A stretch of 64,000 nucleotides of DNA from Microbacterium radiodurans (lineage in GTDB: Bacteria > Actinomycetota > Actinomycetes > Actinomycetales > Microbacteriaceae): contig NZ_VYRZ01000001.1 of the NCBI RefSeq assembly GCF_008710705.1, forward strand, positions 744,001-808,000, read 5' to 3'. Position numbers and translations under genes: made by a program. The notes beneath the pieces are model-generated. The model was not told where the DNA came from and did no database searches. It saw only the letters and a program-made list of their open reading frames with translations. Shown piece by piece: positions 3,783 to 38,870 of this stretch. Within the stretch, counting starts at the first letter, position 1. Each line of letters starts with the position of its first letter.

Positions 3783-3785
3783 ATT

Positions 3786-18258: not shown

Positions 18259-18260
18259 CC

Positions 18261-20060: not shown

Positions 20061-20092
20061 ACCGTGCCGAGGCTGAATCCAGGGGTGTGGCG

Positions 20093-20923: not shown

Positions 20924-20933
20924 GGGCGCGCCG

Positions 20934-22436: not shown

Positions 22437-25050
22437 CGGGGGCCGCTCGGCCGGCCGGATCCCACGCGACGGAGCGGACATGCGTTCCGTGCCCGAGCTC
22501 CTCTGCCGCGGTCCCGGGCAGCTCGAGGACCGCCGTCGCGCCTACGGGCACGGCGATCTCCGCCTGCAGCGTCGTCCCCTCGATCCGCCAGGAGATGGCG
22601 GCGTCGCCGTAGGGTGTCCGATGGCGTGCACTCGCGTGCGAGAGGCCGCCGCCCGGCTGCGGTGCGAACCGGATGCGGCGGTACCCCGGTTCGGCAGGCG
22701 CGAGCCCCGCCACGGCGCGATGCATCCAGTCGGCCACCGCACCCAGGGCGTAGTGGTTGAACGAGGTCATCGTGCCGGGGTTGACCGTGCCGTCGGGCAG
22801 CATCGAGTCCCAGCGCTCCCACACGGTGGTCGCCCCCATGCCGACCTGGTAGAGCCACGAAGGGCATTCACGCTCCATCAGCAGGGCGTACGCGGCGTCG
22901 GCCTCGCCCTCCGAGCTGAGCGCGTCCGTCACGTAGGGTGTGCCGACGAAACCGGTCGCGATGCGATTGCCCGACTCCTCCACCAGCTGCGCCAGTCGGC
23001 GCGCTGCGGGCGCACGCAGCCCCGGCGGCAGCAGCTCGAAGCGGAGCGCGACGGCGTAGGCGGTCTGCGCGTCGGAGGTCATCCGTCCATCGGACTCGAC
23101 GTAGCGGCCGACGAACGCCTCACGGACCTCGTCGGCGAGACGCCCGTAGCGCGCGGCCGCCTCGGCGTCGTCCAGCACGCCGGCCATCCGCGCGACGATC
23201 CGCGCCGAAAGGGCGAAGTAGGCCGTTGCGACGAGGTACTTGTCGGTCAGGCCGGCGGCAGGATCCTGCGGCGGCGCCGCGGGGTCGAGCCAATCGCCGA
23301 GCTGGTAGCCGGTGTCCCACAGCCGCGAGGGGCCGGAGATGTCGGCGATGAGGTCGACCCAGGCGCGAGCGCTGTCGAACTGGGCGCGCAGGATCCCGAC
23401 GTCGCCGAAGCGTTCGTACAGGGTCCAGGGCACGACCGTCGCCGCATCGCCCCACGCCGCGCCCGGACGCATCGGCGTCCACATCGTGTCGGCCGGGATG
23501 ACCGGCACGTACCAGGGCACGGTGCCGTCGGGCAGCTGCTCGGCGGCGAGATCGCGCAGCCATCCCGCCAGCATCCCCGAGCTGTCGAAGAGGAACGACG
23601 CGGTGGGAGCGAACATCTGGATGTCGCCGGTCCATCCCAGGCGCTCGTCGCGCTGCGGGCAGTCGGTGGGGATGTCGACGAAGTTGCCGCGCATGCCCCA
23701 GACGACGTTCTCGTGCAGGCGGTCGAGATCGGGCTCGGACGAGGTGAACCAGCCGGTGCGCTCCAGATCGGTGTGGATGACGCGGGCCACCAGGGCTCCC
23801 TCGGCGACGTCGGCGTCGAGGTCGCCCGGCCAGTCCTCGATCTCGACGTAGCGGAATCCGTGGAAGGTGAAGCGCGGCTCCCACTCCTCCGGCTCATCGC
23901 GGCCGGCGAACGTGTAGCGGTCGGTGGATGCCGCGTCGCGCAGCGGGCGGCGGTAGAGCTCGCCGTCCTGCAGCACCTCGGCGGTGCGGAGGGTCACGGT
24001 GTGACCGGCGGCCGCTCGCGCCCGCAGTCGCACGACGCCGGTCAGGTTCTGGCCGAAGTCGAGCAGCCGTCGTCCGGACGGCGAGGTGAGCACGCTCAGC
24101 GGGAGGCGATCCTCGGTGACGCGCACCGGTGGCGCGGTGGGGGCGACGAGTGTCGCCGGGTCGCGTCGGCGCAGCTGCACACGACCCCAGTCGGCGTCGT
24201 CGAAACCGGGCGCGGACCACCCGGTCTGCTCCTCGCGCGCGTCGTAATGCTCGCCGTCGTAGATGCCCGAGGCGATGATGGGGCTCGGTGCCGCCCGCCA
24301 CGAGGTGTCGGTCGCGACGGTGTCGCGGGAGCCGTCGTCGTAGGTCAGTTCGAGCTGACCGAGGAACGAGAGGTCGTCGCCGTACACGTTGCGGAAGCCG
24401 CCGCGCCAGCCCAGCCGCCCGCGATACCAGCCGTCTCCGAGCCAGGCGCCGATCGCGTTCTCGCCCTCGGTGAGCAGGTCGGTCACGTCGTAGGTGTAGT
24501 AGCGCAGCCGCTGCCCGTACACGGTCCATCCCGGCGAGAGCACATCGTCCCCGACGCGGCGTCCGTTGATCTCGGCCTGGTACACCCCGTGGGCGCTCGC
24601 ATACAGGCGCGCACGTGCCAGGTCCGGACGTACGACGAAGGTGCCGCGGACGAGCGACGGACGTCGGGTGTCGGTGAGCGGGTTCTCGTTGCGGATCGAT
24701 CCGATCGGACCCGCCGTCCAGTCCGACGGCGACAGGAGCCCGGTCTCGAGCCGGAGGGGCTCGCTCCACGCCGAGCGTTCGCCGTCGCCGCCGACGACGC
24801 GCACCCGGACCTGCGCCAGCTCGCGGGAGCGCAGCGGCGCATCGGGCCAGGGGACGAGAACCTGGTCGCCGGAGGGCACGAGCCGGGTCCGGGCGGGACC
24901 GTCGCCGCGGCGGACCTCCACCTCGTAGGCCTGCTGGCGCCAGCCCGCCGGGGCATCGGTCACGATCCACGACAGGCGGGGCTCGGCCTCGCCGATGCCG
25001 AGGGCATCGCGGTGGTGTTCGGCGCGCACGGCGCGGACGGTCGTCGTCAT
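22420..25050 (-). CDS. Alpha-L-rhamnosidase, GH78 (copy 1)
   Basis: 876 residues with the GH78 order: beta-sandwich N-terminal domains (INGRRVGDDVLSPGWTVY), concanavalin-like domain, (alpha/alpha)6 barrel and C-terminal beta domain. Active-site signature DCPQRDERLGWTGD carries Glu469, the likely general acid, and WERWDS carries Glu745, the likely base. It hydrolyses terminal alpha-L-rhamnose, abundant in rhamnogalacturonans and plant glycosides. No signal peptide. ATG 25050 has GAAGGG nine bases upstream; ATG 25059 overlaps the permease stop and has it abutting. Last gene of the second ABC operon, which therefore probably imports rhamnose-containing oligosaccharides. Confidence 0.92.
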   Translation of the reverse strand: MTTTVRAVRAEHHRDALGIGEAEPRLSWIVTDAPAGWRQQAYEVEVRRGDGPARTRLVPSGDQVLVPWPDAPLRSRELAQVRVRVVGGDGERSAWSEPLRLETGLLSPSDWTAGPIGSIRNENPLTDTRRPSLVRGTFVVRPDLARARLYASAHGVYQAEINGRRVGDDVLSPGWTVYGQRLRYYTYDVTDLLTEGENAIGAWLGDGWYRGRLGWRGGFRNVYGDDLSFLGQLELTYDDGSRDTVATDTSWRAAPSPIIASGIYDGEHYDAREEQTGWSAPGFDDADWGRVQLRRRDPATLVAPTAPPVRVTEDRLPLSVLTSPSGRRLLDFGQNLTGVVRLRARAAAGHTVTLRTAEVLQDGELYRRPLRDAASTDRYTFAGRDEPEEWEPRFTFHGFRYVEIEDWPGDLDADVAEGALVARVIHTDLERTGWFTSSEPDLDRLHENVVWGMRGNFVDIPTDCPQRDERLGWTGDIQMFAPTASFLFDSSGMLAGWLRDLAAEQLPDGTVPWYVPVIPADTMWTPMRPGAAWGDAATVVPWTLYERFGDVGILRAQFDSARAWVDLIADISGPSRLWDTGYQLGDWLDPAAPPQDPAAGLTDKYLVATAYFALSARIVARMAGVLDDAEAAARYGRLADEVREAFVGRYVESDGRMTSDAQTAYAVALRFELLPPGLRAPAARRLAQLVEESGNRIATGFVGTPYVTDALSSEGEADAAYALLMERECPSWLYQVGMGATTVWERWDSMLPDGTVNPGTMTSFNHYALGAVADWMHRAVAGLAPAEPGYRRIRFAPQPGGGLSHASARHRTPYGDAAISWRIEGTTLQAEIAVPVGATAVLELPGTAAEELGHGTHVRSVAWDPAGRAAPVTASA

Positions 25051-25055
25051 GATGC

Positions 25056-25964
25056 TCATCCCTTCACCGCACCGGCGGCGAGGCCTTTCATGATCCGCTG
25101 GTTCAGGAACAGGTACAGCAGGAGGATGCCGCCCACGGTGATGCAGATCGCGGCGAACAGCGGGCCGTAGTTGGTCGATCCGTACTCGCCCGAGAAGTTG
25201 AGCAGTCCGACCTGGATCGTGTTGAGGCGTCGCTGGCCGGCGAAGATCAGGGCGAAGAGCAGATCGTTCCAGATCTGGAAGAACTGCACGATGGCCACGG
25301 TCAGGATCGCGTTGCGCATCATCGGCATGCCGATCGCGAAGAAGGCACGCACCATCGAGGCGCCGTCGATCGTGGCCGCCTCGAAGATCTCCCGCGGGAT
25401 GGCGCGGAAGTAGGTGGCCATCATGAAAACCGTCAGCGGCAGACCCGACGCGGTGTAGATGAGGATCAGCGGCAGGAGCGAGCCGGTCGCACCGATCGTG
25501 AAGGCAGCCGTGAACAGGGGCAGCACGATCATCTGGCCGGGGATCATGATGCCCGCCAGGAACAGCAGCAGGATCGTGGCGCGGCCGCGGAACACCAGGA
25601 CCTCGAGGGCGTAGCCCGCGGCGGTTCCGAGGATGACGAGGAGGATGAGCGAGGGGAACGTCACGATCACCGAGTTGACGATCGTGGTCGACAGGTTGGC
25701 CGTCTCCCACCCGGTGATGTAGTTGTCCCAGCGCCACGACTCCGGCAGGGCGTAGGACGGGTTGTTGAGGAAGTCGCTGTTGGACTTCAGCGAGTTGATG
25801 AACATCCAGAACAGCGGATACGCCGTGATGAGGATGAGGAAGGCGATCGTCAGCAGCGCGGGGATGCGGCGAAGCCCGCGGGCGGCCGCAGCGCCCGCGC
25901 CGCCGGGACGCATCCGGGGTGCGCGAGGGGAGCGGACGGCGACGGTGTCGAGCGTGGCGGTCAT
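25056..25964 (-). CDS. Sugar ABC transporter permease (MalG type), second operon
   Basis: 302 residues, six membrane segments, EAA loop EIFEAATIDGASMVRAFFAIGMPMM and C-terminal QRIMKGLAAGAVKG. Very similar in layout and motifs to the permease at 17353-18258, so the two transporters are paralogous. It follows the MalF-type subunit by 10 bases and overlaps the first candidate start of the rhamnosidase. Confidence 0.93.
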   Translation of the reverse strand: MTATLDTVAVRSPRAPRMRPGGAGAAAARGLRRIPALLTIAFLILITAYPLFWMFINSLKSNSDFLNNPSYALPESWRWDNYITGWETANLSTTIVNSVIVTFPSLILLVILGTAAGYALEVLVFRGRATILLLFLAGIMIPGQMIVLPLFTAAFTIGATGSLLPLILIYTASGLPLTVFMMATYFRAIPREIFEAATIDGASMVRAFFAIGMPMMRNAILTVAIVQFFQIWNDLLFALIFAGQRRLNTIQVGLLNFSGEYGSTNYGPLFAAICITVGGILLLYLFLNQRIMKGLAAGAVKG

Positions 25965-26931: not shown

Positions 26932-28239
26932 TCACGGGTTGTCGATCGCGTCCTGGACGAGGGTCATGAACTCCTCCGGCGTCAGCTGACCGGTCGCCAG
27001 CAGAGCCGCGTTGGTCGAGGAGATCTGGCTCGCCTTCGCCGGGAACAGCGCTTCGAACCAGAGCACACTGTCGGTGCTGGTGGCGATCGTGTCGGCGACC
27101 TTCTGCGAGATCTCGGGGAGATCCGCCTCCTCGTCGGCGACGAAGCCGGTGATCTGACCCTCCTGCAGTGCCGCGTTGCCGTAGTTCTCGGCGATGCAGC
27201 CGAGCCAGCCGGCGACGTCGTCCGAGTACGCGTCGGCGCTGAACGTGGCGGGAAGCCCGACGTTCGAGGGGTACTGGTCGATCGACCCTGCCCCGCCCTC
27301 GACGGCGGGGAACGGGAAGAAGCTCATGTTCTCGGCGCCCACCTCGTTCCCGTCGCCGTTGATGTTGCCGAGGATCCAGCTGCCCATGTAGATCATGGGA
27401 GCCTGCCCGGTGAGGAAGAGATTGTATGAGCCGTCGATGTCGAGCGAGGTGACGTTGTCGCCGAAGTAGCCCTGGGCGCCGAGATCGGCGATGGCGGCGG
27501 CGGCCTCGACGTACTCGGGATCGGTGAGCTTGGCCTCGCCGTCGGCCACCTTCTGCAGTGCGTCGGGTCCGACGGAACGGAAGAGGTAGGTCGAGACGAG
27601 TCGCGTCAGCGGCCAGCCCTGCTCGCCCGAGGCGGAGAAGGGCGTGAGGCCGGCGGCCTTGGCCTCGCCGGCGATCTCGACGAGGTCGTCCCAGGTCTCC
27701 GGCACCTCCCAGCCGTTCTCCTCGAAGATCTGCGTGTTGTACCAGATGCCCTCGATGTTGTACTGGAACGGCAGGAAGTTGAACCCGCCGCCGTAGAGCT
27801 TCTCGATCGTCGAGACGGCTCCGGGGGCGATCTTGTCGCGCATACCCAGATCGGTCAACGCCTCATCGAAGTCGACGAGCGCGCCCGCTTCGGCCAGTCG
27901 CGCCCCTTCGGCGGGGTTGCCGCCCGCCGAGAACATCGGAGGCAGGCCGCCCTGGCTCGCGAGCAGCTGGATCTGCGCGTCGAGCTCGGCCTGGGGCACC
28001 GAGCTGACCTCGAGCGGCAGCGCCTCGTTCTGCTCGGCGCACGCACCGTCGATGAGTGCGTCGAGGACGGGCTCGGTGGTGGTGTTCTCGGCGTTCTTCA
28101 AGAACTCGAAGGCCGACGGGGTGCTGCCACCGCCCCCGCCACCGCCGGAGCAGCCGGCGAGAGCGAGCGCTCCGACGCTCATCAGACCGAGAGCGCCGAG
28201 CAGCGGCTTGCGGAGCCGACGCGTTGATGCTGTGGACAC
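26932..28239 (-). CDS. Sugar ABC transporter substrate-binding lipoprotein, second operon
   Basis: 435 residues. Signal peptide with lipobox LALAGC, then a glycine-rich linker and a family 1 solute-binding domain with LPFQYNIEGIWYNTQIF and GEQGWPLTRLV, closely matching the paralogue at 15065. GTG 28239 is preceded by AAGGAGGAAT. First gene of the operon that ends with the alpha-L-rhamnosidase, transcribed from the promoter at 28301-28329. The ligand is probably a rhamnose-containing oligosaccharide, by context. Confidence 0.93.
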   Translation of the reverse strand: MSTASTRRLRKPLLGALGLMSVGALALAGCSGGGGGGGSTPSAFEFLKNAENTTTEPVLDALIDGACAEQNEALPLEVSSVPQAELDAQIQLLASQGGLPPMFSAGGNPAEGARLAEAGALVDFDEALTDLGMRDKIAPGAVSTIEKLYGGGFNFLPFQYNIEGIWYNTQIFEENGWEVPETWDDLVEIAGEAKAAGLTPFSASGEQGWPLTRLVSTYLFRSVGPDALQKVADGEAKLTDPEYVEAAAAIADLGAQGYFGDNVTSLDIDGSYNLFLTGQAPMIYMGSWILGNINGDGNEVGAENMSFFPFPAVEGGAGSIDQYPSNVGLPATFSADAYSDDVAGWLGCIAENYGNAALQEGQITGFVADEEADLPEISQKVADTIATSTDSVLWFEALFPAKASQISSTNAALLATGQLTPEEFMTLVQDAIDNP

Positions 28240-28300: not shown

Positions 28301-28329
28301 ATGGTAGGTCGCGTCTCTCATGCTGTCAA
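28301..28329 (-). promoter_or_regulatory. Promoter of the second ABC / rhamnosidase operon
   Basis: On the minus strand TTGACA (28324-28329), a 17-base spacer and TACCAT (28301-28306) make a good sigma-70-type promoter. Transcription would start inside or next to the LacI operator at 28282-28295. Confidence 0.7.
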
Positions 28330-28370
28330 CAGTCCAGAACATGTCGCGTTCCGTGTGCCGGGGCCTCGTC

Positions 28371-28386
28371 ATTGAAACGTCACAAT
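28371..28386. promoter_or_regulatory. Second LacI-family operator (autoregulatory)
   Basis: ATTGAAACGTCACAAT shares the half-site TTGAAACG with the first operator and has ATTG/CAAT ends. It lies about 63 bases before the regulator start, suggesting autoregulation or looping with the first site 89 bases away. Confidence 0.6.
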
Positions 28387-28448
28387 ATGTCGCTGAATCG
28401 CTGGCGCTGCACTACTGTCGGAAGGCAGCGCGAACAAGGGAGGTCGGT

Positions 28449-29462
28449 GTGCCGAGAGTGGGGATCCGCGACGTCGCGGCGCTCGCCGGCGTCGCCGTCG
28501 GCACCGTCTCCCATTACCTGAACCACCCCGATCGGGTCTCCGACGAGAAGGCCCTGCGCATCCGCGGCGCCATCGAGACGCTCGGATTCGTCCCGTCAAG
28601 CGCCGGGCGTCAGCTGCGGCTGGGGGTGAGCGCCGTCGTCGGCTACATCGCTCCCGACGTGAGCAACCCCTATTTCGCCGAGATCGCCGAAAGCGTCGAG
28701 CGGCGCGCCTCGGAACTGGGCCTGAGCATCTTCCTCGCCAACTCGCACCGCAGCAAGGAGCGTGAGGACGCGTATCTGAAGGTGTTCGAGGAACACCGCG
28801 TACGCGGGCTCATCGTCTCGTCGCACCACCCGATCGAGGAGCGGCTCGAAGCGGTGCGGCTTCGCGGCACGCCGTCTGTCCTCGTGGGCCAGCGCGCTCA
28901 TTCCGCACAGCAGGCCTCGGTCTCAGTCGATGACGAGGAAGGCGGGCGCCTCGTCGCCGGGCACCTGCTCGAGCAGGGGTGCCGCCGCCTGGCGTTCGTG
29001 GGCGGGCCTCTCGACATCCCGCAGGTGGCGGCGCGTCTGGCCGGTGCCGGCGAGGCCGTGCGCACCTCCGGTCCGGCGACCCTCGAGATCCTCCCGCAGC
29101 CCGACCGGACGGTCGAGGGCGGGCGCGAGATCGGCGCCGTGATCGCGTCGCGTCCGCCCGAGCTGCGGCCGCAGGGCGTCTTCGCCGTGAATGACCTGCT
29201 CGCCCTCGGCATCTTGCAGGAGCTCGCGCGCGCCGGCATCCGGGTGCCTGAAGATCTCGCGCTCGTCGGCTACGACGACAACGTGTACGCGCAGGCGTCC
29301 CTCATTCCGCTGACCACCGTGCGCACGCGGCACGTCGGATTCGGGGTGGCGGTGGTCGACGTGCTCTCCGACGTCCTCTCGGGGCGCTCCATCGACGAAC
29401 CGCATCGGGTGTTCCGGCCCGAGCTGGTCGTCCGCGAGAGCAGCCTCACCTCGCGCGGGTGA
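28449..29462 (+). CDS. LacI-family transcriptional regulator of the second ABC operon
   Basis: 337 residues with an N-terminal LacI helix-turn-helix (VGIRDVAALAGVAVGTVSHYL, about 4-24) and a sugar-binding core (IAPDVSNPYFAEIAESVERRA, VDDEEGGRLVAGHLL, LVGYDDNVYAQASLIPLTTV). GTG 28449 gives the canonical start and has AGGGAGG upstream; the frame stays open much further but without family sequence. It is divergent from the ABC/rhamnosidase operon and two LacI-type palindromes lie in the gap, so it almost certainly represses that operon until a sugar inducer appears. Confidence 0.93.
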   Translation: MPRVGIRDVAALAGVAVGTVSHYLNHPDRVSDEKALRIRGAIETLGFVPSSAGRQLRLGVSAVVGYIAPDVSNPYFAEIAESVERRASELGLSIFLANSHRSKEREDAYLKVFEEHRVRGLIVSSHHPIEERLEAVRLRGTPSVLVGQRAHSAQQASVSVDDEEGGRLVAGHLLEQGCRRLAFVGGPLDIPQVAARLAGAGEAVRTSGPATLEILPQPDRTVEGGREIGAVIASRPPELRPQGVFAVNDLLALGILQELARAGIRVPEDLALVGYDDNVYAQASLIPLTTVRTRHVGFGVAVVDVLSDVLSGRSIDEPHRVFRPELVVRESSLTSRG

Positions 29463-29472
29463 TCGACCCGGC

Positions 29473-30738
29473 TCAGAACTCCCACACCGGTGCCCGGTCC
29501 TCGAGGAACGCGATCATCGTCAGCGCGAGGAAGTTCCAGTTCTGGAAGCCGTGCGTGATGATCGGCTCCCCCGTGTCGGGGTGGTAGTACTCGTGGAGCG
29601 AGCCGTTCGCCTCGAGGTCGGCGCCGAAGAGCGCGACGGTCTTCTCGGCGAGATCGCGCGCGTCGTCCACGAACCCGTACTTCAGCAGTCCGCGGAACAC
29701 GAGGTAGTTGCTGATGCCCCACACCGGCCCGAGCCAGTTCGAGGGGTTGTTCGACGCCCGGAGGTCGAAGCCCTTCTCCAGCCGGGAGAGGGTGCGGACC
29801 CCGTAGTTGGCGTGGAAGGTGCGCGAATCGCGGTACCGTTCGACCATCCGCTCGGCCTGGACCTGGCTCGCCAGTCCCGCCCACATCGGCAGGAAGCTCG
29901 ACCAGCTGTCGACGCGCAGCAGCAGCCCTGACCAATGCCGTGGCGCGCCCCGGTGCAACCAGTCGTCGGGGTCGATTCCGCGCAGGCCGATGTCGACGCT
30001 GTAGAACGTACCGTCGCGTTCGTCCCAGGCGGAGGCGTGGAGAGCGTCAGCCAGGTCCTGGGCGCGCCCGCGCCACCGGTTGGCGGCGACGGGATCGCCG
30101 AGCTCCTCGTGGAGGTAGCCGGCGGCGAGCAGCTCCCGGTACAGCAGGCTGTTGAGGAAGATCGCCGCCGTGCTGCGATCGGGCCGGTAGTACACCGACG
30201 GGTCGTTGTCGACACCCACGGCGAAGTCGGTCTGCCAGTACGCGAGCCCGGTTCCGGCGTGCAGATGGCTCGTCAGGTAGCGCTCGAGGAAGGTCTCGAG
30301 CACGTGCAGGTGCGGCCGCATCCACTCCGCGCTTCCCGCGCGGCGAGACAGCAGGGCGGCATGCTGGGCCAGCACGGGCTTGTGCATGTTCTGCCGGAAT
30401 CCGCCGGCGCGCCCGGACTCCCCGTGCTGCAGCGACCCCGACGGGCTGAGCTGGATGGGCATGACCCCATCGGCATCGGTGTGGTCGAGGAAGTTCAGGA
30501 TGCTGCCGCGCTCGTACTCGGCGAAGTGGCCCGGTCGGTCGGTGTCGCGCTCGACCTGGCCGAGGGCGATGCTGATGGTCCAGGAGTCCCAGTCCCAGAG
30601 CGCATGCGAGTAGTACGGCGAGTCCGGGTCGCTGGGAACCGTGTACGGGTGCGCCAGGATGCCTTCGGGCTCGCGTGTCATCCGATCGGACCGCGCGCGG
30701 ACGAACGTACTCAGTTCCTGTCGCCAACGCTCCTGCAT
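29473..30738 (-). CDS. (Alpha/alpha)6-barrel glycoside hydrolase, trehalase/GH63-like
   Basis: 421 residues of a mostly helical six-hairpin fold, like MGH1-type/GH63/trehalase hydrolases: WDWDSW near residue 50, DNDPSVYYRPDRST, SNNPSNWLGPVWGISNYLVF and ENSLHEYYHP-like NGSLHEYYHPDTGEP. The Asp in the WDWDSW region and Glu in LHEYYH are candidate catalytic acids. No signal peptide. The ATG shares one base with the stop of the ApnL-like gene (TGATG), making this the last gene of the apiose operon. It may hydrolyse an imported apioside or related glycoside; this is inference from position only. Confidence 0.7.
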   Translation of the reverse strand: MQERWRQELSTFVRARSDRMTREPEGILAHPYTVPSDPDSPYYSHALWDWDSWTISIALGQVERDTDRPGHFAEYERGSILNFLDHTDADGVMPIQLSPSGSLQHGESGRAGGFRQNMHKPVLAQHAALLSRRAGSAEWMRPHLHVLETFLERYLTSHLHAGTGLAYWQTDFAVGVDNDPSVYYRPDRSTAAIFLNSLLYRELLAAGYLHEELGDPVAANRWRGRAQDLADALHASAWDERDGTFYSVDIGLRGIDPDDWLHRGAPRHWSGLLLRVDSWSSFLPMWAGLASQVQAERMVERYRDSRTFHANYGVRTLSRLEKGFDLRASNNPSNWLGPVWGISNYLVFRGLLKYGFVDDARDLAEKTVALFGADLEANGSLHEYYHPDTGEPIITHGFQNWNFLALTMIAFLEDRAPVWEF

Positions 30739-32534
30739 CACTGCTCCTGTTCGAGGTCGAGCCGGCGCCACGCGCCCGCGGGGATGTCCAGAACCGTGTG
30801 CCGACCGGCGGCGTGCAGCTCGGCGCGGCGCGGGACACGATCCAGGTTCGCGGCCAGCACCGAGATGCCGTCGGCGGTGCGGGCGGCGAGCGCCCAGATC
30901 AGCCCGTCGGGGCTGCTCCCACTCTCCGCCTCGTGACCGGCGAGCAGCGCGAGAGCGCGCATCGCGGCCGCCACCGGACGTGCCACACCGCTCGCGTCGA
31001 GGATTCCGCGCGGACCCCACGACTCGAAGAACGTCAGGCTCGCCACGCCCGGCACGGCGAGGGCGGCGGCGCTCGCGATGGTCCAGGCCGCGAGCTCGGG
31101 CGCACTCTGGCGCGAATCGTCGGCGTCGATCAGGTGCGTGCCGTAGCCGCTCGACAGATCGGATGCCGCGGGGCGCGGCGGCGCCGTGGTGGCGACGTCG
31201 TTGAAGTGCGGACGCAGCGTGATCGGGCCGATGTGCACCGGCGTCCCCCGGGCGACCTCGACCGCCTGCGCGGCGACCAGACGCTGCACCGCGAGCGACT
31301 CGACGAGCTGCTCGGTGTCGCGACTGTGGAAGAGCGGGGTGACGCTGAAGACCGTTCCGGCGAGGTCGCCCGGCAGCCGGTGCCGCTCGCGGTTCAGCTC
31401 GGTGAAGTGGGCGCGCGAGCCGCCGACCACCGGAACCTCGAGGCCGGCTCGCTGCAGCGCGGTTCGGAGCAGCGCGACCGAGACCGCGTCGGAGATATGG
31501 CGTGCCGGCCCGGTGGGCTGGAAGGCGGTCACACGGACGAGGGGATGCGCGGTGAGGGCTGCGATCGCTTCCGCGAGTACGGCGGCGATCCCGGCATCCG
31601 CTTCAGCCGACACCCCCGCCTCGGCCGGAAGCACGAGCCGCGCATCGAGGGGCCGCCCCTCGGTCACCGCGCGGTCGAGCGCCGCCCGCCACCCGGGCCA
31701 GGCCAGGTCGAGCTCGACGAGCGTGATCGCGACGTCGGACCCCGATCCGACCCGCGCGCCCGTGGTGCGCCCGACATGGTCGGGCGCCCGGTCGGGCGCC
31801 GTCGAAGCGCTCAGTCCGATCATCGGGAAGACCCCCGCGGGTCGCAGGTCGACCACGGCATCGTCCGCGTGCGCTGCGGGCGGCGCGCTGACATCGGCCG
31901 TGATGAGAACGGCCTGACGCACCCGCTCTCCCGCGTCGACCGGGTAGGGGAACGGCAGCGACAGCGGCCGGCTGTAGACCTTGAACGACGCGTCCGTCCA
32001 GTTGCGCTGATCCTCGATCTCGAAGACGTCGCCGTCGAAGGCGAGCCCGACGGCGAGGCCGTCTTCGGACCACCGGATGCCGGCGACGTCGAGAACCGGC
32101 TGATGCGGACTGATGGCGACCGGCAGCGCTGTGGAGGACGCGGTTCCGGTCGCGTGCTCGACGTCGAGCCGGGCGCCTGCAGCGGCGGGCGGGATGAGGG
32201 CGACCAGTCCGGTGCGGTTCGTCTCGACGGGCTCCGCCGCCTCGAGGTCGCACAGCACGCGCAGGTCCGCGCCGCGCACCTCTGCGCGGACGACGCCGCG
32301 GAACGGCATCCGATCGTCGTCGGTGCGGACGTGCAGCGTGAGGCTCGACTCCGCCGGCGTGACTCGGTCGACGACGAGATCGATCGTGTTCCAGTCGCGG
32401 TCGCGGACGACGGCCCGGATGCTGCGGAGAACGCGGCGCCCGCGCCAGGCGAGATCGGCGAACTCGTCGCCGCGCAGGTCGAAGGTCCACTCGCCGAGCT
32501 CGCGTCGGTCGACGGCCTCGCGCCACCAGGTCAT
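30738..32534 (-). CDS. apnL: D-apionate (apionolactone) lactonase-like protein, ApnL-like
   Basis: 598 residues in three parts: N-terminal beta domain (FRGVVRAEVRGADLRVLCDLEA; EDQRNWTDASFKVYSRPL at about 205), a central TIM-barrel-like domain and a small C-terminal beta domain. This size and the DQRNWTDASFK segment match the D-apionate lactonase family, which opens D-apionolactone to D-apionate. Start 32534 has GGAGA upstream. It is flanked in the same operon by ApnO-, OiaC-, LerK-, LerI- and DerI-like genes, the strongest support. The family match was made by recall of its architecture, not by a search. Confidence 0.72.
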   Translation of the reverse strand: MTWWREAVDRRELGEWTFDLRGDEFADLAWRGRRVLRSIRAVVRDRDWNTIDLVVDRVTPAESSLTLHVRTDDDRMPFRGVVRAEVRGADLRVLCDLEAAEPVETNRTGLVALIPPAAAGARLDVEHATGTASSTALPVAISPHQPVLDVAGIRWSEDGLAVGLAFDGDVFEIEDQRNWTDASFKVYSRPLSLPFPYPVDAGERVRQAVLITADVSAPPAAHADDAVVDLRPAGVFPMIGLSASTAPDRAPDHVGRTTGARVGSGSDVAITLVELDLAWPGWRAALDRAVTEGRPLDARLVLPAEAGVSAEADAGIAAVLAEAIAALTAHPLVRVTAFQPTGPARHISDAVSVALLRTALQRAGLEVPVVGGSRAHFTELNRERHRLPGDLAGTVFSVTPLFHSRDTEQLVESLAVQRLVAAQAVEVARGTPVHIGPITLRPHFNDVATTAPPRPAASDLSSGYGTHLIDADDSRQSAPELAAWTIASAAALAVPGVASLTFFESWGPRGILDASGVARPVAAAMRALALLAGHEAESGSSPDGLIWALAARTADGISVLAANLDRVPRRAELHAAGRHTVLDIPAGAWRRLDLEQEQ

Positions 32535-32545
32535 GGCGTCTCCGA

Positions 32546-33301
32546 TCAGAGGGTCGTCATGCCGCCGTCGACCGAGAAGGTCGCGCCGGTCGCGAAGGAG
32601 CCCTCGTCGCTCGCGAGGTAGACCATGATCCCGGTGACGTCGGCGGGCGTGCCGGCGCGGCCGATCGGGATGCGCGAGACGATCGCGGCGCGCGAGTCGG
32701 GGTCGTCGGTGATGGCCGCGACGAGCGGGGTCTCGGTGTAGGCCGGCTGCACCGTGTTCACTCGGATGCCGCGATCGGCATACGCCGCCGCGACGGTGCG
32801 GCCGAGCCCGTGGACGCCCGCCTTCGACGCGCTGTAGGCCGTGAAGTCGCGTCCCTCGCCGTTCACGGCGGTCGGGCTCCCGGTCAGGATGATCGACCCG
32901 CCGCCGCGCGAGAGCAGGGCGCGGACGGCGTACTTCACCGTCAGGAACGTGCCCGTCAGGTTGATGTCGATCGTCCGCCGCCACACGTCGAGGTCGAGGT
33001 CGGCCGCGGGTGCGTCGTGTCCGAAGAGCTGCACCCCCGCGTTGGCGACGACGACATCGGGCGTCCACCCGGCCGCCTCGAGCTCGGCGAAGGCCGCGGC
33101 GACGGCGGCCTCGTCGGAGATGTCCATCGTCGCCGCCCGCGCGAGCGGACCGAGTGCGCCGGCGGCCTCGGCGACGGCCGCCGCATTGCGGTCCGCGAGC
33201 ACGACCCGCGCGCCCTCGGCGATGAAGCGCTCGGCGACCGCGTACCCGATGCCCATCGCGGCACCCGTGACGAGCGCCGTCTTGCCCTGGAGTCTGGTCA
33301 T
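32546..33301 (-). CDS. Short-chain dehydrogenase/reductase, candidate D-apiose dehydrogenase
   Basis: 251-residue classical SDR: TGAAMGIG (12-19), Asp37 in LADR suggesting NAD+, NAG motif (NAGV, 87-90), catalytic Ser142, Tyr156 and Lys160 (YSASK). The known D-apiose dehydrogenase belongs to the Gfo/Idh/MocA family and none is encoded in this operon or window. An SDR lying between the ApnO-like and ApnL-like genes is therefore a good candidate for the first step, oxidation of D-apiose to apionolactone. That role is inference; it could equally oxidise another released sugar. Confidence 0.85.
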   Translation of the reverse strand: MTRLQGKTALVTGAAMGIGYAVAERFIAEGARVVLADRNAAAVAEAAGALGPLARAATMDISDEAAVAAAFAELEAAGWTPDVVVANAGVQLFGHDAPAADLDLDVWRRTIDINLTGTFLTVKYAVRALLSRGGGSIILTGSPTAVNGEGRDFTAYSASKAGVHGLGRTVAAAYADRGIRVNTVQPAYTETPLVAAITDDPDSRAAIVSRIPIGRAGTPADVTGIMVYLASDEGSFATGATFSVDGGMTTL

Positions 33302-33310
33302 CGTCGTCCC

Positions 33311-34174
33311 TCAGCGCTCGATGTGGTCGAGGTGCAGCATCCGAGCGAGGTTCTTGTCGAGCTCGTCGTCGCGGAAGATCTTCTTCCAGTCGTCCTTGAT
33401 GATGCTCTCGCGACCGTAGTCCATCGCGATGAGGCACGCGTCGCTGAAGGGGTTGTCGCCGCGGAGGCCATTGGCGAGGGCCACCTGGGTGTGGCCGTAG
33501 AGGATGCTGCGCGCCGCCGCCTCGGGAACGCCCATCGTGTGGATGGCCTCGTCGAGCGCCTCGTTCAGGAGCGAGCCGATCATGCAGGCGACCGTCTCGA
33601 CCAGGGTCGGCTCGAGCTGCGCCAGCTGCTTCACGGTCACGAAGTGCACGTCGACGACCGGCGCGTAGATGGCACGCACGGTGGCCTCGACGATCTCGCG
33701 GTGCACCGGATCGTCCGATTCGACGGCGGCGATCGCATCCTGCGGCGCGGCGATGCCGCCGAAGGTGTCGGCCCATTCCTCCTTCGTCGTCCGCTCGAGG
33801 AAGACCGAGGGGTGGCACGGGTGGGCGACCGCCTGGACGACGTCGTCGCGCGTCGTGAGGAGCCCCGCGTACGCGGCGGCGGGGTCGAGGGTCAGCACGA
33901 TCGCGCCGGACTTCAGCTGCGGCACGAGCTCGGCGGTCACGGGCCCCAGGGCGAGGTCGGGCACCGCGAGCACGACGATGTCGGCATCGGCGACGGCGTC
34001 GCGGGCGTCGGTCAGCTCGCGTCCGGCGGCTATCGTGCGTTCGCGTCCGGCGGGGGAGTTCTCGACGTAGCGGACGGAATGGGCGGTCTTCACGAGGTTG
34101 TTCGACACCCGCATCCCCATCTTCCCGCCGGCGCCGACGACGGCGATCGTGTAGGTCTCGGTCGTTGCGGTCAT
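33311..34174 (-). CDS. apnO: D-apionate oxidoisomerase-like, ApnO-like (PGDH_C domain)
   Basis: 287 residues: N-terminal Rossmann domain (VVGAGGKMGMRVSNNL, 12-27) and a helical 6-phosphogluconate-dehydrogenase-like C-terminal domain with PCHPSVF, SILYGHTQVALANGL and IIKDDWKKIF. This matches ApnO, which oxidises and isomerises D-apionate to 3-oxo-isoapionate with NAD+. GAGGAG precedes ATG 34174, which overlaps the stop of the OiaC-like gene by 4 bases. The order ApnO-OiaC-LerI-DerI-LerK in one operon supports the call. Confidence 0.78.
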   Translation of the reverse strand: MTATTETYTIAVVGAGGKMGMRVSNNLVKTAHSVRYVENSPAGRERTIAAGRELTDARDAVADADIVVLAVPDLALGPVTAELVPQLKSGAIVLTLDPAAAYAGLLTTRDDVVQAVAHPCHPSVFLERTTKEEWADTFGGIAAPQDAIAAVESDDPVHREIVEATVRAIYAPVVDVHFVTVKQLAQLEPTLVETVACMIGSLLNEALDEAIHTMGVPEAAARSILYGHTQVALANGLRGDNPFSDACLIAMDYGRESIIKDDWKKIFRDDELDKNLARMLHLDHIER

Positions 34175-35010
34175 GGTGTGCTCCTCAGATAGTCGATGGC
34201 GGTGCGGGTCCACGCCCGCTCGGTTCGGACGGTCGTCTCGGCGTCGCCCTGCCAGGGCAGCCAGTGCTCGACGATCTCGTTCACCCCGGGCTCGTCGCCC
34301 CCGGGCTCGTCGCCCCCGGGCTCGTCGATCCCGCGCCCGCGCGGGCGGACGGTCTCCAGCAGCCGGGGGTAGTCGTGCAGGCCCTCGCCGAGGGGAGCGC
34401 CGGAGTAGGTGAAGCCCACCCAGCCGGGCTGACGGTCGAAGGCGAAGTCCTTGGCGTGGATGTTCACGACGTGATCGGCGGCGAGCTCCACGCACGTTTC
34501 CGGCAGCTCGAGCCGCGCGACGACGTTCGCGGGGTCGAGGCAGATCCCCAGGCGCGGGCTTCCGATCGACGCGACGAGCCGAACGAGGTCGGCCGTGGCC
34601 ACCTGCTCGTACGTCTCGAGCGCGAGGGTGACGCCGGCGCTCTCGAACGACGGCAGGATGCCGCGCAGCCACGCCTCGGCCTCGCTCATCGTGGGGCGGG
34701 AGTCGGGGCCGAGCAGCATGCTGCGGACGAGGCGCGCGTCGAACACGTCGGCGATGTCGAGGAAGCGCCCCAGCCGTGCGGGCTCGATCCCCTTGGTGCC
34801 GAGCTCGATCGCGAGGCCGAGGTCGCGTGCGGTCGCCGCGGCGTCGGAGATCTCGCGGCCGGTCATCGACTCGAGGGGAGCGAAGTCGCAGATCTGGAAC
34901 AGGTCGACGTCGAGCTCGCGCGTCGCTTCGAGCGCGCCGCGCAGCGTCAGCGGCTCGTCGACGCGCTCGGAGTGCTGCCAGAAGAACGCGTAGGTGCCGA
35001 GGCCGATCAT
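34171..35010 (-). CDS. oiaC: 3-oxo-isoapionate decarboxylase-like, OiaC-like (xylose-isomerase-type TIM barrel)
   Basis: 279 residues of the sugar phosphate isomerase/epimerase-like TIM barrel. Candidate metal ligands are Glu in LALETYEQ, Asp in CLDPANV and His in VNIHAKDF. In D-apiose pathways OiaC, of this fold, decarboxylates 3-oxo-isoapionate to L-erythrulose, which the neighbouring LerK-like kinase would use. It overlaps both neighbours by 4 bases. Odd feature: residues about 226-243 contain three tandem DEPG units (IDEPGGDEPGGDEPGV), encoded by a 15-bp DNA repeat, probably a surface loop. Confidence 0.72.
   Translation of the reverse strand: MIGLGTYAFFWQHSERVDEPLTLRGALEATRELDVDLFQICDFAPLESMTGREISDAAATARDLGLAIELGTKGIEPARLGRFLDIADVFDARLVRSMLLGPDSRPTMSEAEAWLRGILPSFESAGVTLALETYEQVATADLVRLVASIGSPRLGICLDPANVVARLELPETCVELAADHVVNIHAKDFAFDRQPGWVGFTYSGAPLGEGLHDYPRLLETVRPRGRGIDEPGGDEPGGDEPGVNEIVEHWLPWQGDAETTVRTERAWTRTAIDYLRSTP
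34285..34330. repeat. 15-bp tandem repeat within the OiaC-like gene
   Basis: Three near-identical copies of CCCGGGCTCGTCGCC in tandem; the last ends in GATC. The unit is in frame and adds five residues per copy (DEPGG), so copy-number change would lengthen a loop without breaking the frame. Confidence 0.85.
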
Positions 35011-35774
35011 CGGCTGCTCCGCCGCGCCGCGAGATCGGCAGCCTCGTCGAGCACCGCCGCGAAGGCGGCCGGATCATGCGCGAACCGGCCGAGGAACAGG
35101 CCGTCGACGTCATCGCCGAGCCGGGCGAGGAGGCCCGGGCCGGCGGATCCGCCGTAGACGACGCTCGAGCCGGCGCGGTCGGCGTCGGCGTCGAGGGCGC
35201 CCCGCACGGCGCGGGCGACGGCCGCGACGTGCGTCGGCGGCGCCGGTTCGGGCGCGCCGATCGCCCAGACCGGCTCGTAGGCGACGACGACCCGGCCCGC
35301 GGGCGCGTCGGCGAGGGCGGCGCGCAGCTGATCGACGGACTCGCGGGCGGCGGCCGCGGCATCCTGTCGCTCGACCTCGCCGATGCACAGCACCGGGGTC
35401 AGGCGGTGGCGGAGCGCAGCGGCGGTCTTCGCCGCGACGACCTCGGGGGTGTCGCCGAGGAGGCGCCGCCGCTCGGCGTGGCCGATCTCGGCGTAGGTGA
35501 CCCCCGATTCGGCGAGCTCGGCCGCGGTGACCTCCCCGGTGTAGGCGCCGGGCTCGAAGGCCGAGACGTCCTGCGCGGCGAGGGCGATGCCGGTGCCGTC
35601 GACGTAGCCGCGGGCATCGTCGATCTGCAGATAGCTCGGAGCGACGAAGACGCTCACCTCGCCGCTGCGGACGGCCGCGTTGCCGCGCGCGATCCCGGCG
35701 ATCTCGCCGAACCAGACGCGGGCGCGTCGACGGCCGAAGTACGCCTTGAGGCTGACTCCGACGACGACCGCCAT
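35007..35774 (-). CDS. lerI: Triosephosphate-isomerase-family protein, L-erythrulose-1-phosphate isomerase-like (LerI)
   Basis: 255 residues with the TPI catalytic set: Lys10 (VSLKAYF, in place of the usual NWK), His99 (EIGHAERR) and Glu167 (AYEPVWAIG), plus the phosphate loop VVYGGSAGPGLL. The SLK start and operon partners distinguish it from glycolytic TPI. LerI interconverts L-erythrulose 1-phosphate and D-erythrulose 4-phosphate. Its ATG shares one base with the DerI-like stop (TGATG) and its stop overlaps the OiaC-like start. Confidence 0.8.
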   Translation of the reverse strand: MAVVVGVSLKAYFGRRRARVWFGEIAGIARGNAAVRSGEVSVFVAPSYLQIDDARGYVDGTGIALAAQDVSAFEPGAYTGEVTAAELAESGVTYAEIGHAERRRLLGDTPEVVAAKTAAALRHRLTPVLCIGEVERQDAAAAARESVDQLRAALADAPAGRVVVAYEPVWAIGAPEPAPPTHVAAVARAVRGALDADADRAGSSVVYGGSAGPGLLARLGDDVDGLFLGRFAHDPAAFAAVLDEAADLAARRSSR

Positions 35775-36244
35775 CAGCAGTGTCCCGTGGTCTCGTACTC
35801 CCCGATGACCGCCACCTTCGCGGCGGACGCGGACGCGGGGTCGAAGCGGTAGCCGAGCCACTCGCGGACCAGTCGCCGGGCGAGCTCGATGCCGATGACG
35901 CGCTGGCCCATCGTGAGCACCTGCGCGTCGTTGGAGAGCACGCCGCGCTCGACCGAGAACGAGTCGTGGGCGGTGACGGCACGGATGCCGGTGACCTTGT
36001 TCGCCGCGATCGCGACCCCGAGGCCGGTGCCGCAGATGAGCAGCGCGCGGTCGGCCTCGCCGCGCGCGACGCGCTCGGCCGCCTCGATGGCGACCTTCGG
36101 GTACGCGGTGTGCCCGTCGGCGTCGACTCCGACGTCGACGACGGACGCGACGGCGTCGCTCGCCTCGAGATCGCCCTTGAGGATCTGCTTGTAGTCGAAG
36201 CCGGCGTCGTCGCTGCCGATCACGATGCGCAGGGGAGTGGTCAT
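35774..36244 (-). CDS. derI: RpiB-family isomerase, D-erythrulose-4-phosphate isomerase-like (DerI)
   Basis: 156 residues, the normal RpiB length. [11 protein letters not shown] (9-19) binds phosphate, Cys71 in [13 protein letters not shown] is the catalytic base and His93 in [10 protein letters not shown] helps ring opening. In apiose and erythritol pathways DerI converts D-erythrulose 4-phosphate to D-erythrose 4-phosphate, which enters the pentose phosphate pathway. Both decarboxylation branches (OiaC/LerK/LerI and OiaK/OiaX) need this enzyme. GAGAGGA precedes the ATG, which overlaps the kinase stop by 4 bases. Confidence 0.82.
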
Positions 36245-38019
36245 GAGGGGGTCCTCTCGGATTCGCGTGCGGCGTCCTGCAGCACGTCGGCGACGGCGGT
36301 GACGATGAGGGCGAGCGAGTGCGCGCCGGGGTCGGGGGTGCCGAGGCTGTGGTCGCCGTGGGTGCGGGCGCGACCCCGGCGAGCCTGGAGCTCGGCGGTG
36401 TCGGCGGCGGCGGTCGTTGCCGTCGACGCCGCGGTGCGCCATGCGGCCGCGGCGTCGGCGCCGGCGGACGTCTCGGCGCGGAGCGTGTCGGCGAACGGCT
36501 GCAGCGCGTCGACCATCGTCTTGTCGCCCGGCTGCGCCCCGCCCGAGGCGGAGACCGCGTCGGCGGCGGCCGCGACGGCGTCGGCGACGGACGCGGCGGT
36601 CGGGGAGCCGGTGTCGCCGATCCGAGCGCCGAGGGTGCGGAGGATGATGCCCCACAGGGCGCCGGAGGTGCCGCCCGCGCGATCGGACCAGGCGTCGCCG
36701 GCTCTCTCGAGCACCGATCCGGCGCCGGCCCCGTCGGCCACCGCCGTGCGCGCGGCGGCGATCGCGGCGGTCGCGCCCCGCTGCATCCCGATGCCGTGGT
36801 CGCCGTCTCCGGCGACGCTGTCGAGGCGGCCGAGCTCGTCGACGTGGCGGTCGATCGTCGCCGCCGTCACCGCGATCGCCGCCAGTACGGTGCGGGCGGC
36901 GTCGCGGGATGCGGCGTCGGCGGGCGCCGCCGCGGGTGCAGCCGCGGTGCGGATGTCGTCGGAAGTCGGCGCTGCGGTGGTGGCGGTCGCGGCATCCGAG
37001 ATGGTCCGGGCCGGGTCGACGCTGCCGCGACGGTACGCGGGAGTGTCGACCGGCGTCTCCCACAGGTCGGCGAGCTCGTCGTCGAGCCAGAACAGCGTGA
37101 GCGATGCGCCCGCCATGTCGAAGCTCGTGCAGTACTCGCCGACGTGCGGATCGACGATCGTGACGCCCGCATCGTCGAGCAGTTCGGCGATGCGGCGGTA
37201 GACGACGAACAGCTCCTCGTACTTCAGCGAGCCGAGGCCGTTGAGCACGGGCACCACCCTGCCTTCGATGCCGGCGTCGTCCGGGCGTTCGGCGAGCACG
37301 CGCTCGACCAGCAGTTCGGCGAGACCGTCGGCGGACGGGATGCCGGTCTCGTCGATGCCCGGCTCGCCGTGGATGCCGAGGCCGACGGCCATCCGTCCCT
37401 CCGGCACCGTGAACAGCGGTGCCGGGGCTCCGGGCAGGGTGCATCCCGTGAAGGCGACGCCGAACGAGCGGGTGCGGTCGTTGGCGTGGCGAGCGACGCG
37501 AGCGACCTCGGCCAGGGGCGCTCCGGCGGCCGCCGCGCCCGCGGCGGCGCGGAAGACGGTCAGGTCGCCGGCGATGCCGCGCCGTTCGCCCGCGCGCTCG
37601 GGCGGTGCGGAGGCGATGTCGTCGGTCACGACCACCGTCTCGCACGCGATGCCCTCGGCGCGCAGACGCCGCTGCGCCTCGTCGAAGTTGAGGACGTCGC
37701 CCGCGTAGTTGCCGTAGGAGAAGAGGATGCCGCCACCGGCGTGCGCGGCGCGGGCGACCGAGACGATCTGCTGGGTCGACGGCGAGGCGAAGAGGTTGCC
37801 CATCGCGGCGCCGTGGGCGAGGCCGGGGCCGACCAGGCCGCCGAACGCGGGGTAGTGCCCCGACCCGCCGCCGATCACGACGGCGACCTCGCCCTCGGGC
37901 ACGGCGGTGCTGCGGACGACGCCGCCGGGCACGCGGCGGACGGAGCGCGCGTTGGCGGCGACGAACCCGGCGATCATCTCGTCGGCGAAGTCGGCGGGGT
38001 CGTTCCACAGGCGGGTCAT
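36241..38019 (-). CDS. lerK: Dihydroxyacetone-kinase-family protein, L-erythrulose kinase-like (LerK)
   Basis: 592 residues, a single-chain DhaK-DhaL fusion. DhaK part: [16 protein letters not shown] (49-64) and His217 in [11 protein letters not shown], the residue that covalently holds the keto substrate. DhaL part from about 380 has the nucleotide site [12 protein letters not shown]. An Ala/Asp-rich linker joins them. LerK phosphorylates L-erythrulose to L-erythrulose 1-phosphate. It is the first gene of the eight-gene operon and faces the GntR regulator across a strong palindrome. A general dihydroxyacetone kinase role cannot be excluded from sequence alone. Confidence 0.82.
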
Positions 38020-38075: not shown

Positions 38076-38095
38076 TTGGCAAACCGGTTGACCAA
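38076..38095. promoter_or_regulatory. GntR/FadR-type operator between the apiose operon and its regulator
   Basis: TTGGCAAACCGGTTGACCAA is a 20-bp palindrome with two mismatched pairs, built on the half-site TTGGTCAACC typical of FadR-subfamily operators. It lies between the divergent lerK-like gene and the GntR gene. On the minus strand TTGCAA ends the site and CAAACT follows at 17 bases, so the palindrome would sit in the promoter spacer. Confidence 0.75.
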
Positions 38096-38135: not shown

Positions 38136-38870
38136 ATGCCCGCCTACCGTGACACCGGCGCGCCCGACCTCACCGCGGCGCTCACCTCGTTGCCGGCGCG
38201 CACTCCCGTCTCGGAGGTGGCGCGCCGCCTCATGGACCTGTTCACGAGCGGCGACGTCGCGCCCGGCACCCGCCTGCCGCCCGAACGCCAGCTCGCGGCG
38301 ACCCTCGGCGTCGGACGCTCGGCGGTGCGCGAAGCCCTCGCCGCGCTCGAGATCCTCGGCATCGTCGACGTTCGTCCCGGGTCGGGCACCTACCTGCGCG
38401 GCGCGGCGAGCGAGCTCCTGCCGCAGACGCTCCGCTGGGGGCTCCTCATCGGCGAGCGCAACACCCGCGAGCTGATCGAACTCCGCTCCGGACTCGAGAT
38501 CTACGTCGCGCGTCTGGCCGCGGGCGCCGCCGCCGGCGACGGGGGCACGCTCGGACGCTTCGTCGACCGGATGCGCGACGCCCTCGACGACCTCCCCGCC
38601 TTCGCCCGAGCCGACCTCGCGTTCCACCACGAGCTCGCCCGTCTGGCGGGCAACGCGATGCTCGTCGACCTCCTGCACGTCGTCCGCTCGCTGCTGCAGG
38701 TCTACGCCGACCGGGCCGTGCACGATGCCGAGCAGGCGAGCCGGGCGCTCGCCGAGCACGAGGCGATCGCGCGGGCGGTCGCCGCCGGCGATGCCGATGC
38801 CGCGGCATCCGCCATGGCCGGGCACATGGCCACCGCGGCTCAGCGCATCACCGCCGACCACGCCCTCTGA
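38136..38870 (+). CDS. GntR-family regulator (FadR subfamily, FCD domain)
   Basis: 244 residues: winged helix domain at about 22-90 ([41 protein letters not shown]) and an all-helical FCD effector domain ([38 protein letters not shown]) whose Asp and His residues normally bind a metal and a carboxylate ligand. It is divergent from the apiose operon with a matching palindrome in the gap, so it is the likely repressor. A sugar acid of the pathway such as apionate or 3-oxo-isoapionate is a plausible inducer, because FCD domains usually bind organic acids. Confidence 0.92.

Follow-up and report, generated by a model that had tools for sequence, protein, structure and literature searches.

Within a 64,000-nucleotide stretch of the Microbacterium radiodurans genome (contig NZ_VYRZ01000001.1, positions 744,001 to 808,000; the whole stretch is called the window here), eight genes on the minus strand probably form one operon for the use of D-apiose, which is probably controlled by a GntR-type regulator and fed by imported oligosaccharides of rhamnogalacturonan II (RG-II). 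The genes lie where a preliminary description of this DNA had placed them, with the overlaps and the two gaps that it gave, and the operon itself can be regarded as confirmed. Its use of D-apiose, also proposed there, is the best-supported reading: at the level of sequence, it is backed by a set of apionate-route enzymes, by apiosidase-like and rhamnosidase genes, importers and a GntR gene, and by a conserved site. What is new lies outside the operon, in a module of genes for a GH127 hydrolase, a RuBisCO-like protein (RLP), a kinase and a racemase-fold protein (called Race here), for which catabolism of aceric acid is put forward as a hypothesis that the genomic data support well. Coordinates of all features are collected in Table 1.

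Along the operon, the junctions from the kinase to the dehydrogenase are overlaps of 4, 1, 4 and 4 bases, gaps of 9 and 11 bases flank a short-chain dehydrogenase/reductase (SDR) gene, and the ApnL-like and MGH1-like genes overlap by 1 or 4 bases, depending on the start codon; an alternative GTG start at 30741 is possible for the latter. Pfam families back the enzyme class of seven of the eight products. The lactonase, which has no Pfam match, is classed by NCBIfam, where ApnL (NF049900) is its only match. The kinase combines Dak1 and Dak2 domains and is the sole Dak1 match of the genome; at class level it has the predicted build of the LerK type, a fused dihydroxyacetone-kinase-like kinase. 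Similarly, the ApnO-like protein joins an NAD-binding domain (PF03446, 30 bits against a cut-off of 21) to a PGDH_C domain, the combination that marks ApnO at class level, and gives one match in its own genome at E 0.001. In the OiaC-like barrel, E132, D159, H185 and E248 are invariant in an alignment of 26 sequences, and we take them to bind metal, as in relatives. No signal peptide is apparent by eye in the MGH1-like glycosidase, whose substrate may be an apiosyl or RG-II oligosaccharide.

The scheme that we infer, including its substrates, reactions, co-transcription, oligosaccharide import and cytoplasmic location, would begin with neighbouring ATP-binding cassette (ABC) systems that import apiosyl oligosaccharides from RG-II. 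GH78, apiosidase-like and MGH1-like enzymes would trim these in the cytoplasm, and the SDR, or an extended SDR (eSDR) encoded elsewhere in the window, would oxidize D-apiose to apionolactone. ApnL would then open the lactone, ApnO would oxidize D-apionate with a carbon shift to 3-oxo-isoapionate, and the OiaC-type barrel would decarboxylate 3-oxo-isoapionate to L-erythrulose. In the lower part of the pathway, LerK would phosphorylate L-erythrulose, and LerI and DerI would convert L-erythrulose 1-phosphate through D-erythrulose 4-phosphate to D-erythrose 4-phosphate. The preliminary description had matched every enzyme class to a step between apionolactone and D-erythrose 4-phosphate; six genes fit, and the SDR and the glycosidase fall outside those steps. 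The OiaC step, and pathways of ApnL, ApnO and OiaC followed by LerK, LerI and DerI, were reportedly described by Carter et al. in 2018 (Nat Chem Biol). The LerK, LerI and DerI reactions are set out in the available part of PMC10733421, and the available part of PMC11747546 reports growth of a Rhodobacteraceae strain on D-apiose, with a cluster encoding apionolactonase, apiose dehydrogenase, apionate oxidoisomerase, and 3-oxoisoapionate kinase and decarboxylase. In Bacteroides, apiosidases and rhamnosidases of such kinds release apiose and split Rha-Api, according to the accessible text of PMC7939467.

Conservation of the operon was assessed in two sets of genomes. A search of 297 genomes from the order for ApnO-type genes (E 1e-20 or better) gave 36 places in 35 genomes, the present one included; 27 of the 35 places outside this genome were taken as loci, in stretches of up to 20 kb, and eight were left out. 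A gene is counted as present when it lies anywhere inside the extracted stretch. All 27 loci have an OiaC type in addition to ApnO (at a distance of 4.9 kb and on the opposite strand in one case), and GntR is found in 24, the DerI type in 17, the LerK and LerI types in 15 each, and ApnL in 14. A congener (G352, loci L188-L189) keeps the block in the same order, and together with the constancy of the OiaC type this argues that the eight-gene set is more than a chance assembly. A related LerK-LerI-OiaC-ApnO run, with identities of 48-59%, is present in Erwinia (L093). The second set comprised 198 genomes of the genus, where the MGH1-like glycosidase occurs in ten, all with ApnO and a close RLP (identity of 74% or more); in eight of the ten, the present genome included, its gene lies within 3 kb of ApnO. 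An SDR orthologue (at least 55% identity) was found in nine of the 27 ApnO loci and the eSDR in five others, where it stands near apnL-apnO-oiaC. None of those 27 loci has both, but the window, G352 and G478 do; the two may be alternatives for the first oxidation.

Several observations weigh against the D-apiose reading. The profile searches proposed in the preliminary description succeeded in part: the kinase passed NF011049, the cut-offs for ApnL and rhizobial DerI were missed, and OiaC and ApnO are not certified. Specifically, the lactonase score of 186 bits is far below the ApnL cut-off of 750, and the RpiB-like protein reaches 142.6 against 240 for the rhizobial DerI model NF051858. The OiaC-like barrel has no NCBIfam match, and the ApnO-like protein matches just weak NCBIfam dehydrogenase models, with no curated model to certify it as ApnO. 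The LerI-like protein stays below the cut-offs of all nine NCBIfam triose-phosphate isomerase models listed (157 against 293, for example), and the SDR passes none among the 25 of 228 NCBIfam models that were listed. Best matches outside the apiose enzymes, which had been named beforehand as evidence against the assignment, are thus partly what is seen at the level of curated models. Since these models are mostly missed, the identities of the operon genes rest on class, order and context. Furthermore, the apiose dehydrogenase reportedly described is a Gfo/Idh-type enzyme, and the operon has an SDR instead; no Gfo/Idh-type apiose dehydrogenase is present among the eight genes, the rest of the genome not having been searched for one. 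Neither an SDR nor an eSDR orthologue was found in 13 of the 27 ApnO loci, and ApnL was not found in 13, so the front end of the pathway is not constant, and some species may start from free apionate.

Two other substrates have to be weighed. The apionate-like enzymes might instead handle another branched sugar acid, such as aceric acid, a reading that we consider improbable: the ApnL is divergent and an aceric-acid-hydrolase-like gene lies in the same block, but a lower pathway that leads to erythrose 4-phosphate suits a four-carbon ketose, and a close RLP is missing from 29 of the 56 genus genomes that bear ApnO. That the operon serves tetritols (erythritol, threitol), with LerK-LerI-DerI as a shared lower pathway and the SDR as threitol dehydrogenase, is very improbable; these three proteins do function in tetritol catabolism (PMC10733421, available text) and the SDR weakly matches the GolD/DthD model (172.7 against 286), but a tetritol route has no role for the ApnL, ApnO and OiaC types, and it was set aside because ApnO and OiaC are the constant pair of the 27 loci, whereas LerK was not found in 12 of them.

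The D-apiose operon is preceded by a conserved 14-bp site, TTGGTCAACCGGTT, which lies inside a 17-bp spacer between TTGCAA and CAAACT, an arrangement that is promoter-like by eye only. All eight stretches inspected, the window among them, share this layout, although the final hexamer varies. With up to two mismatches, the site is present in 24 of the 27 ApnO stretches (exact in 18), anywhere in the stretch; the three exceptions are L071, L088 and L050, the last of which starts at the end of a contig. In L065, L067 and L068, additional copies are situated close to ApnL or to an importer. No copy with up to two mismatches arose in five mononucleotide shuffles of the window, and a 20-mer around the site occurs once in the window, where none is expected. 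The own genome of 3.18 Mb holds one place at up to one mismatch, which is exact and upstream of the operon. Against this, a reversed control pattern also has one genome match at up to one mismatch, our estimate is about one chance match per such genome at that tolerance, and a sigma70 scan called no promoter at the site. What gives the site its weight is its conservation, together with the exact copy ahead of the operon. The site was not found in L186, L187, the Erwinia locus L093 or L189, the stretch with the GH127-RLP-kinase module of G352. The adjacent GntR/FadR-type gene, with GntR and FCD domains, likely regulates the operon, and its product may bind the 14-bp site.

RG-II is a domain of higher-plant pectin with apiose and aceric acid as its two branched residues, and its side chain B contains rhamnose, galactose, apiose and aceric acid. 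The operon is one arm of a block of about 34 kb (approximately 4.8 to 38.9 kb of the window) that looks built for RG-II side chains, a larger setting that the preliminary description did not mention. All four sugars are named as RG-II residues in the available parts of PMC7939467 and PMC12168206. For the apiosidase-like protein of the block, a search of solved structures at E 0.001 gave a single relative, 4n0r, a putative glycoside hydrolase. Directly upstream of the window, an L-rhamnose operon (positions 5341-12753 of L179, which covers 731000-744600 of the contig) carries genes for mutarotase-like, isomerase, bifunctional rhamnulose-1-phosphate aldolase/dehydrogenase and rhamnulokinase-like proteins. 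Beside the block, at 875-4291 of the window, lies the gene for a large FAD/Fe-S oxidase, glycolate-oxidase-like, which perhaps acts on lactate from rhamnose. A further sugar cluster at 47741-57469 of the window has a second apiosidase-like/DUF5060 gene (47741-49753) and genes of families GH43 (52391-53890) and GH3 (55061-57469).

Table 1. Features of the operon and its surroundings in window coordinates (scores in bits, with cut-offs after 'vs').
Feature	Position	Strand	Match or remark
LerK-like L-erythrulose kinase, fused DhaK-DhaL	36241..38019	-	NF011049 745 vs 492
DerI-like RpiB-family isomerase	35774..36244	-	TIGR02133 (RPI_actino) 210.6 vs 168.2, passed
LerI-like triose-phosphate-isomerase paralogue	35007..35774	-	PF00121 174
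OiaC-like 3-oxo-isoapionate decarboxylase candidate, xylose-isomerase-like (AP_endonuc_2) barrel	34171..35010	-	PF01261 56.3 vs 31.1
ApnO-like D-apionate oxidoisomerase candidate	33311..34174	-	PF16896 PGDH_C 188 vs 25
Classical SDR, candidate D-apiose dehydrogenase	32546..33301	-	PF13561 203
ApnL-like D-apionolactonase	30738..32534	-	NF049900 186, residues 12-569 of 598
MGH1-like glycosidase	29473..30738	-	PF22422 126.6 vs 27
Conserved 14-bp site TTGGTCAACCGGTT	38082..38095	-	before the operon's first gene
GntR/FadR-type regulator	38136..38870	+	GntR and FCD domains
LacI-family regulator	28320..29462	+	true start probably downstream
ABC importer 1, solute-binding protein	26932..28239	-	weak matches to sugar-binding protein models
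ABC importer 1, two permeases	25975-26856, 25056-25964	-	named by eye/position; same order in G352
GH78 alpha-L-rhamnosidase	22420..25059	-	five rhamnosidase domain models
Apiosidase-like (GH140-like) hydrolase	20928..22436	+	PF13204 61.6 vs 26.5
eSDR, second dehydrogenase candidate	20087..20923	+	PF01370 77
SorC/DeoR-type sugar-binding regulator	18916..19893	-	
Race, Asp/Glu-racemase-fold protein, one catalytic-type Cys	18255..18905	+	PF01177 68 vs 31
ABC importer 2, permeases	16470-17351, 17353-18258	+	
ABC importer 2, binding protein	15065-16405	+	
GH127 aceric-acid-hydrolase-like enzyme	12863..14911	-	NF049879 754 vs 950; true start probably downstream of 14911
RLP, OiaX-related	11599..12855	-	NF042437 405 vs 700
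OiaK-like four-carbon acid sugar kinase	10280..11593	-	NF042436 245.6 vs 700; first in-frame start GTG at 11593
GH2 beta-galactosidase-like enzyme	4784..7807	+	start uncertain; same place in G352

The products of the module resemble known enzymes and fall below the curated cut-offs for aceric acid hydrolase, OiaX and OiaK. The best solved relative of the GH127 protein is 5mqo (BT_1003) at 614 bits, the next reaching 351; it is thus nearer to BT_1003 than to the solved beta-L-arabinofuranosidases, and its E-x-C and CC motifs are kept. BT1003 is an aceric acid hydrolase according to the available text of PMC10850190. The OiaX cut-off is likewise missed by RLPs that lie close to ApnO in Cupriavidus and Halalkalicoccus (473 and 518), and for this reason the OiaX score was dropped as a test of membership. 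The window RLP lies about 20 kb from ApnO, not in direct linkage with it. Its catalytic-type residues K156, K182-D183-D184-E185, H271-R272, H304, S341-S342 and G366-368, which we presume to match RuBisCO positions, are invariant in ten sequences. The kinase has SBD_N and NBD_C domains. For Race, an AlphaFold2 model (pLDDT 96.3) aligns with aspartate racemase 3s81 over 209 residues (VIA Z 21.7, root-mean-square deviation (rmsd) 2.4). C76 and Q184 are invariant in 29 of 29 sequences, with Q184 at the presumed place of the second Cys of two-Cys racemases, a place that we judged by a sequence motif and not by superposition. Since the second Cys seems to be missing, a role as amino-acid racemase was not retained.

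Aceric acid is 3-C-carboxy-5-deoxy-L-xylose, and we propose tentatively, as a serious possibility that falls somewhat short of probable, that the module beside the apiose operon encodes a pathway for it with the RLP as decarboxylase. The GH127 enzyme would free aceric acid and Race would isomerize it to the 2-ketose. This ketose, HOCH2-CO-C(OH)(COOH)-CHOH-CH3, would be 3-oxo-isoapionate with CHOH-CH3 in place of CH2OH, so a kinase and an RLP of the OiaK/OiaX kind could act on it. An aldose-ketose isomerase would then be all that is still needed, and Race is the other recurring enzyme. The one-base proton transfer of a one-Cys protein would suit an isomerase, for which RpiB, with its single Cys base, is a precedent. 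The OiaK-like kinase would phosphorylate C1 of the 2-ketose, and the RLP would decarboxylate the resulting methyl homologue of 3-oxo-isoapionate 4-phosphate to 5-deoxypentulose 1-phosphate. A dihydroxyacetone phosphate (DHAP) aldolase, perhaps from the adjoining rhamnose operon, would split this into DHAP and acetaldehyde.

The module recurs in four phyla, mostly away from ApnO. Its distribution was followed in 84 RLP loci, the best 80 of at least 570 confirmed relatives from a scan of species genomes plus four plasmid loci, with neighbourhoods of up to 1.5 kb for an OiaK-like gene and up to 9 kb for Race, ApnO and GH127; a GH127 type is a GH127 gene within 9 kb or a GH127-like family without a Pfam match. 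An OiaK-like gene is present in 78 loci, Race in 44, ApnO in 17 and a GH127 type in 48. Race and the GH127 type associate (40 loci with both, 4 with Race alone, 8 with the GH127 type alone, 32 with neither; Fisher p 2e-11), and Race avoids ApnO (2, 42, 15 and 25 in the same order; Fisher p 2e-4), p-values that are a guide only as the loci are related by descent. Race, RLP and GH127 or GH127-like genes occur together in Actinomycetota, Bacillota, Acidobacteriota and Pseudomonadota, the GH127 proteins outside Actinomycetota being divergent. In the RLP tree, the window RLP and 23 other rows make up a clade (SH-aLRT 98) whose 24 members all carry the label Race or GH127 and none the label ApnO; the Race or GH127 label also appears in several other parts of the tree. 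Among the matches listed, most of the nearest RLP loci with a name come from Microbacterium.

The GH127-like family deserves separate mention. This hydrolase family without a Pfam match (L128:7518-9245 and relatives) is found in 17 of the 84 loci, stands before Race-RLP-kinase in Paenibacillus and Cohnella, lies directly before Race in 11 of its own 13 Bacillota loci, and has E-T-C and CC motifs. Its predicted model has a pLDDT of 57.7, and the 20 best Foldseek hits are all GH127 or GH146; these superpose poorly on the model (TM 0.32-0.38, rmsd 17-22), and the single hit of a profile search was 5opj, at E 0.025. On this modelling the family probably belongs to the GH127/GH146 clan. In five other Bacillota loci (L129, L130, L138, L150 and L159), a gene of class II aldolase type accompanies the RLP-kinase pair, ApnO and Race were both not found, and a third substrate is possible.

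An alternative to the aceric acid proposal, which we regard as rather unlikely, is that RLP and kinase act on 3-oxo-isoapionate as an additional OiaK/OiaX branch and so duplicate the role of OiaC. The best family matches of the two proteins are indeed OiaX and OiaK, a close RLP occurs in 27 of the 198 genus genomes, all 27 with ApnO, and two of the 84 RLP loci have ApnO together with Race or a GH127 type. Set against this, 42 of the 44 Race-bearing RLP loci have no ApnO within 9 kb, and six of 15 order genomes with an RLP of at least 47% identity have no ApnO match at E 1e-20. In four of these six (G063, G091, G189 and G245) the RLP stands with kinase, GH127 and Race, G013 ends at a contig edge, and G005 has just the kinase beside the RLP. 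ApnO occurs in 56 genus genomes, and the 29 mentioned above have no close RLP. Two of these 29, G395 and G459 (clusters L186 and L187), carry instead a divergent RLP (50-51%) directly with a second ApnO-like (45%), ApnL-like and OiaK-like genes in addition to the standard ApnO, so the classical OiaK/OiaX branch looks like a separate cluster there. The conserved site of the apiose operon was, as noted above, not found in L189. RLPs of 35-37% identity occur in G312 and G323.

Other observations count against an aceric acid pathway. Two loci, L123 and L169, are those with ApnO beside Race or a GH127 type, and 17 of the 84 carry no ApnO, Race or GH127-type label, some perhaps through missed genes (L118 is unlike its sister Kribbella loci). 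The context label changes 12 times on the RLP tree, and context thus does not follow clades strictly. In Croceibacterium, the GH127 protein reaches just 87 bits to the aceric model, and Race was not found in that stretch. Apart from Race, the 70 most frequent gene clusters of the RLP loci included no conspicuous isomerase or aldolase; recurrence of a class II aldolase was confined to five loci of a different type. Aldolase-domain places number four in the genome, with one in the rhamnose operon and none in the window. A literature search at the level of titles and abstract starts, with subscription papers mostly outside it, returned no paper on aceric acid catabolism. If the aceric acid proposal is true, the RLP would have a new role and reaction for the RuBisCO superfamily and the module would give the first route for the fate of aceric acid. 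The module makes this catabolism directly testable with four enzymes.

The apiose operon is a well-delimited actinobacterial version of a known type of pathway, marked by a conserved site upstream and by two candidate dehydrogenases as alternatives. It has the same enzyme classes and step order as the D-apiose/D-apionate pathways reportedly described by Carter et al. in 2018, and differs from them in an SDR or eSDR replacing the Gfo/Idh enzyme, a divergent ApnL, an MGH1-like glycosidase and its setting in an RG-II block. The D-apiose degradation described for Pectobacterium and Escherichia in the available part of PMC13001218 concerns the same sugar with another first step (an isomerase or its replacement), and that part names no apionate enzymes. 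In the RG-II system of Bacteroides thetaiotaomicron, as far as the accessible texts of PMC10850190 and PMC7939467 go, BT1003 is an aceric acid hydrolase, BT1012 an apiosidase and BT1001 a rhamnosidase; shared features are a GH127 protein nearest BT_1003 among solved relatives, and apiosidase-like and GH78 genes that lie together. Unlike that system, the sugar pathways are encoded alongside here, and signal peptides are not apparent by eye (starts being partly uncertain), so that trimming probably takes place after ABC import.

The OiaK/OiaX branch (PMC11747546, available text) has the same kinase and RLP families side by side, and the accessible part of PMC6302742 refers to Carter et al. (2018) for RLPs that act on 3-oxo-isoapionate 4-phosphate. 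In the window, in contrast, GH127 and Race are the partners of the pair, ApnO is about 20 kb away, and the RLP belongs to an actinobacterial clade of its own. With tetritol catabolism, as described in the available text of PMC10733421, the operon shares LerK, LerI and DerI, whereas its front end is of the apionate type.

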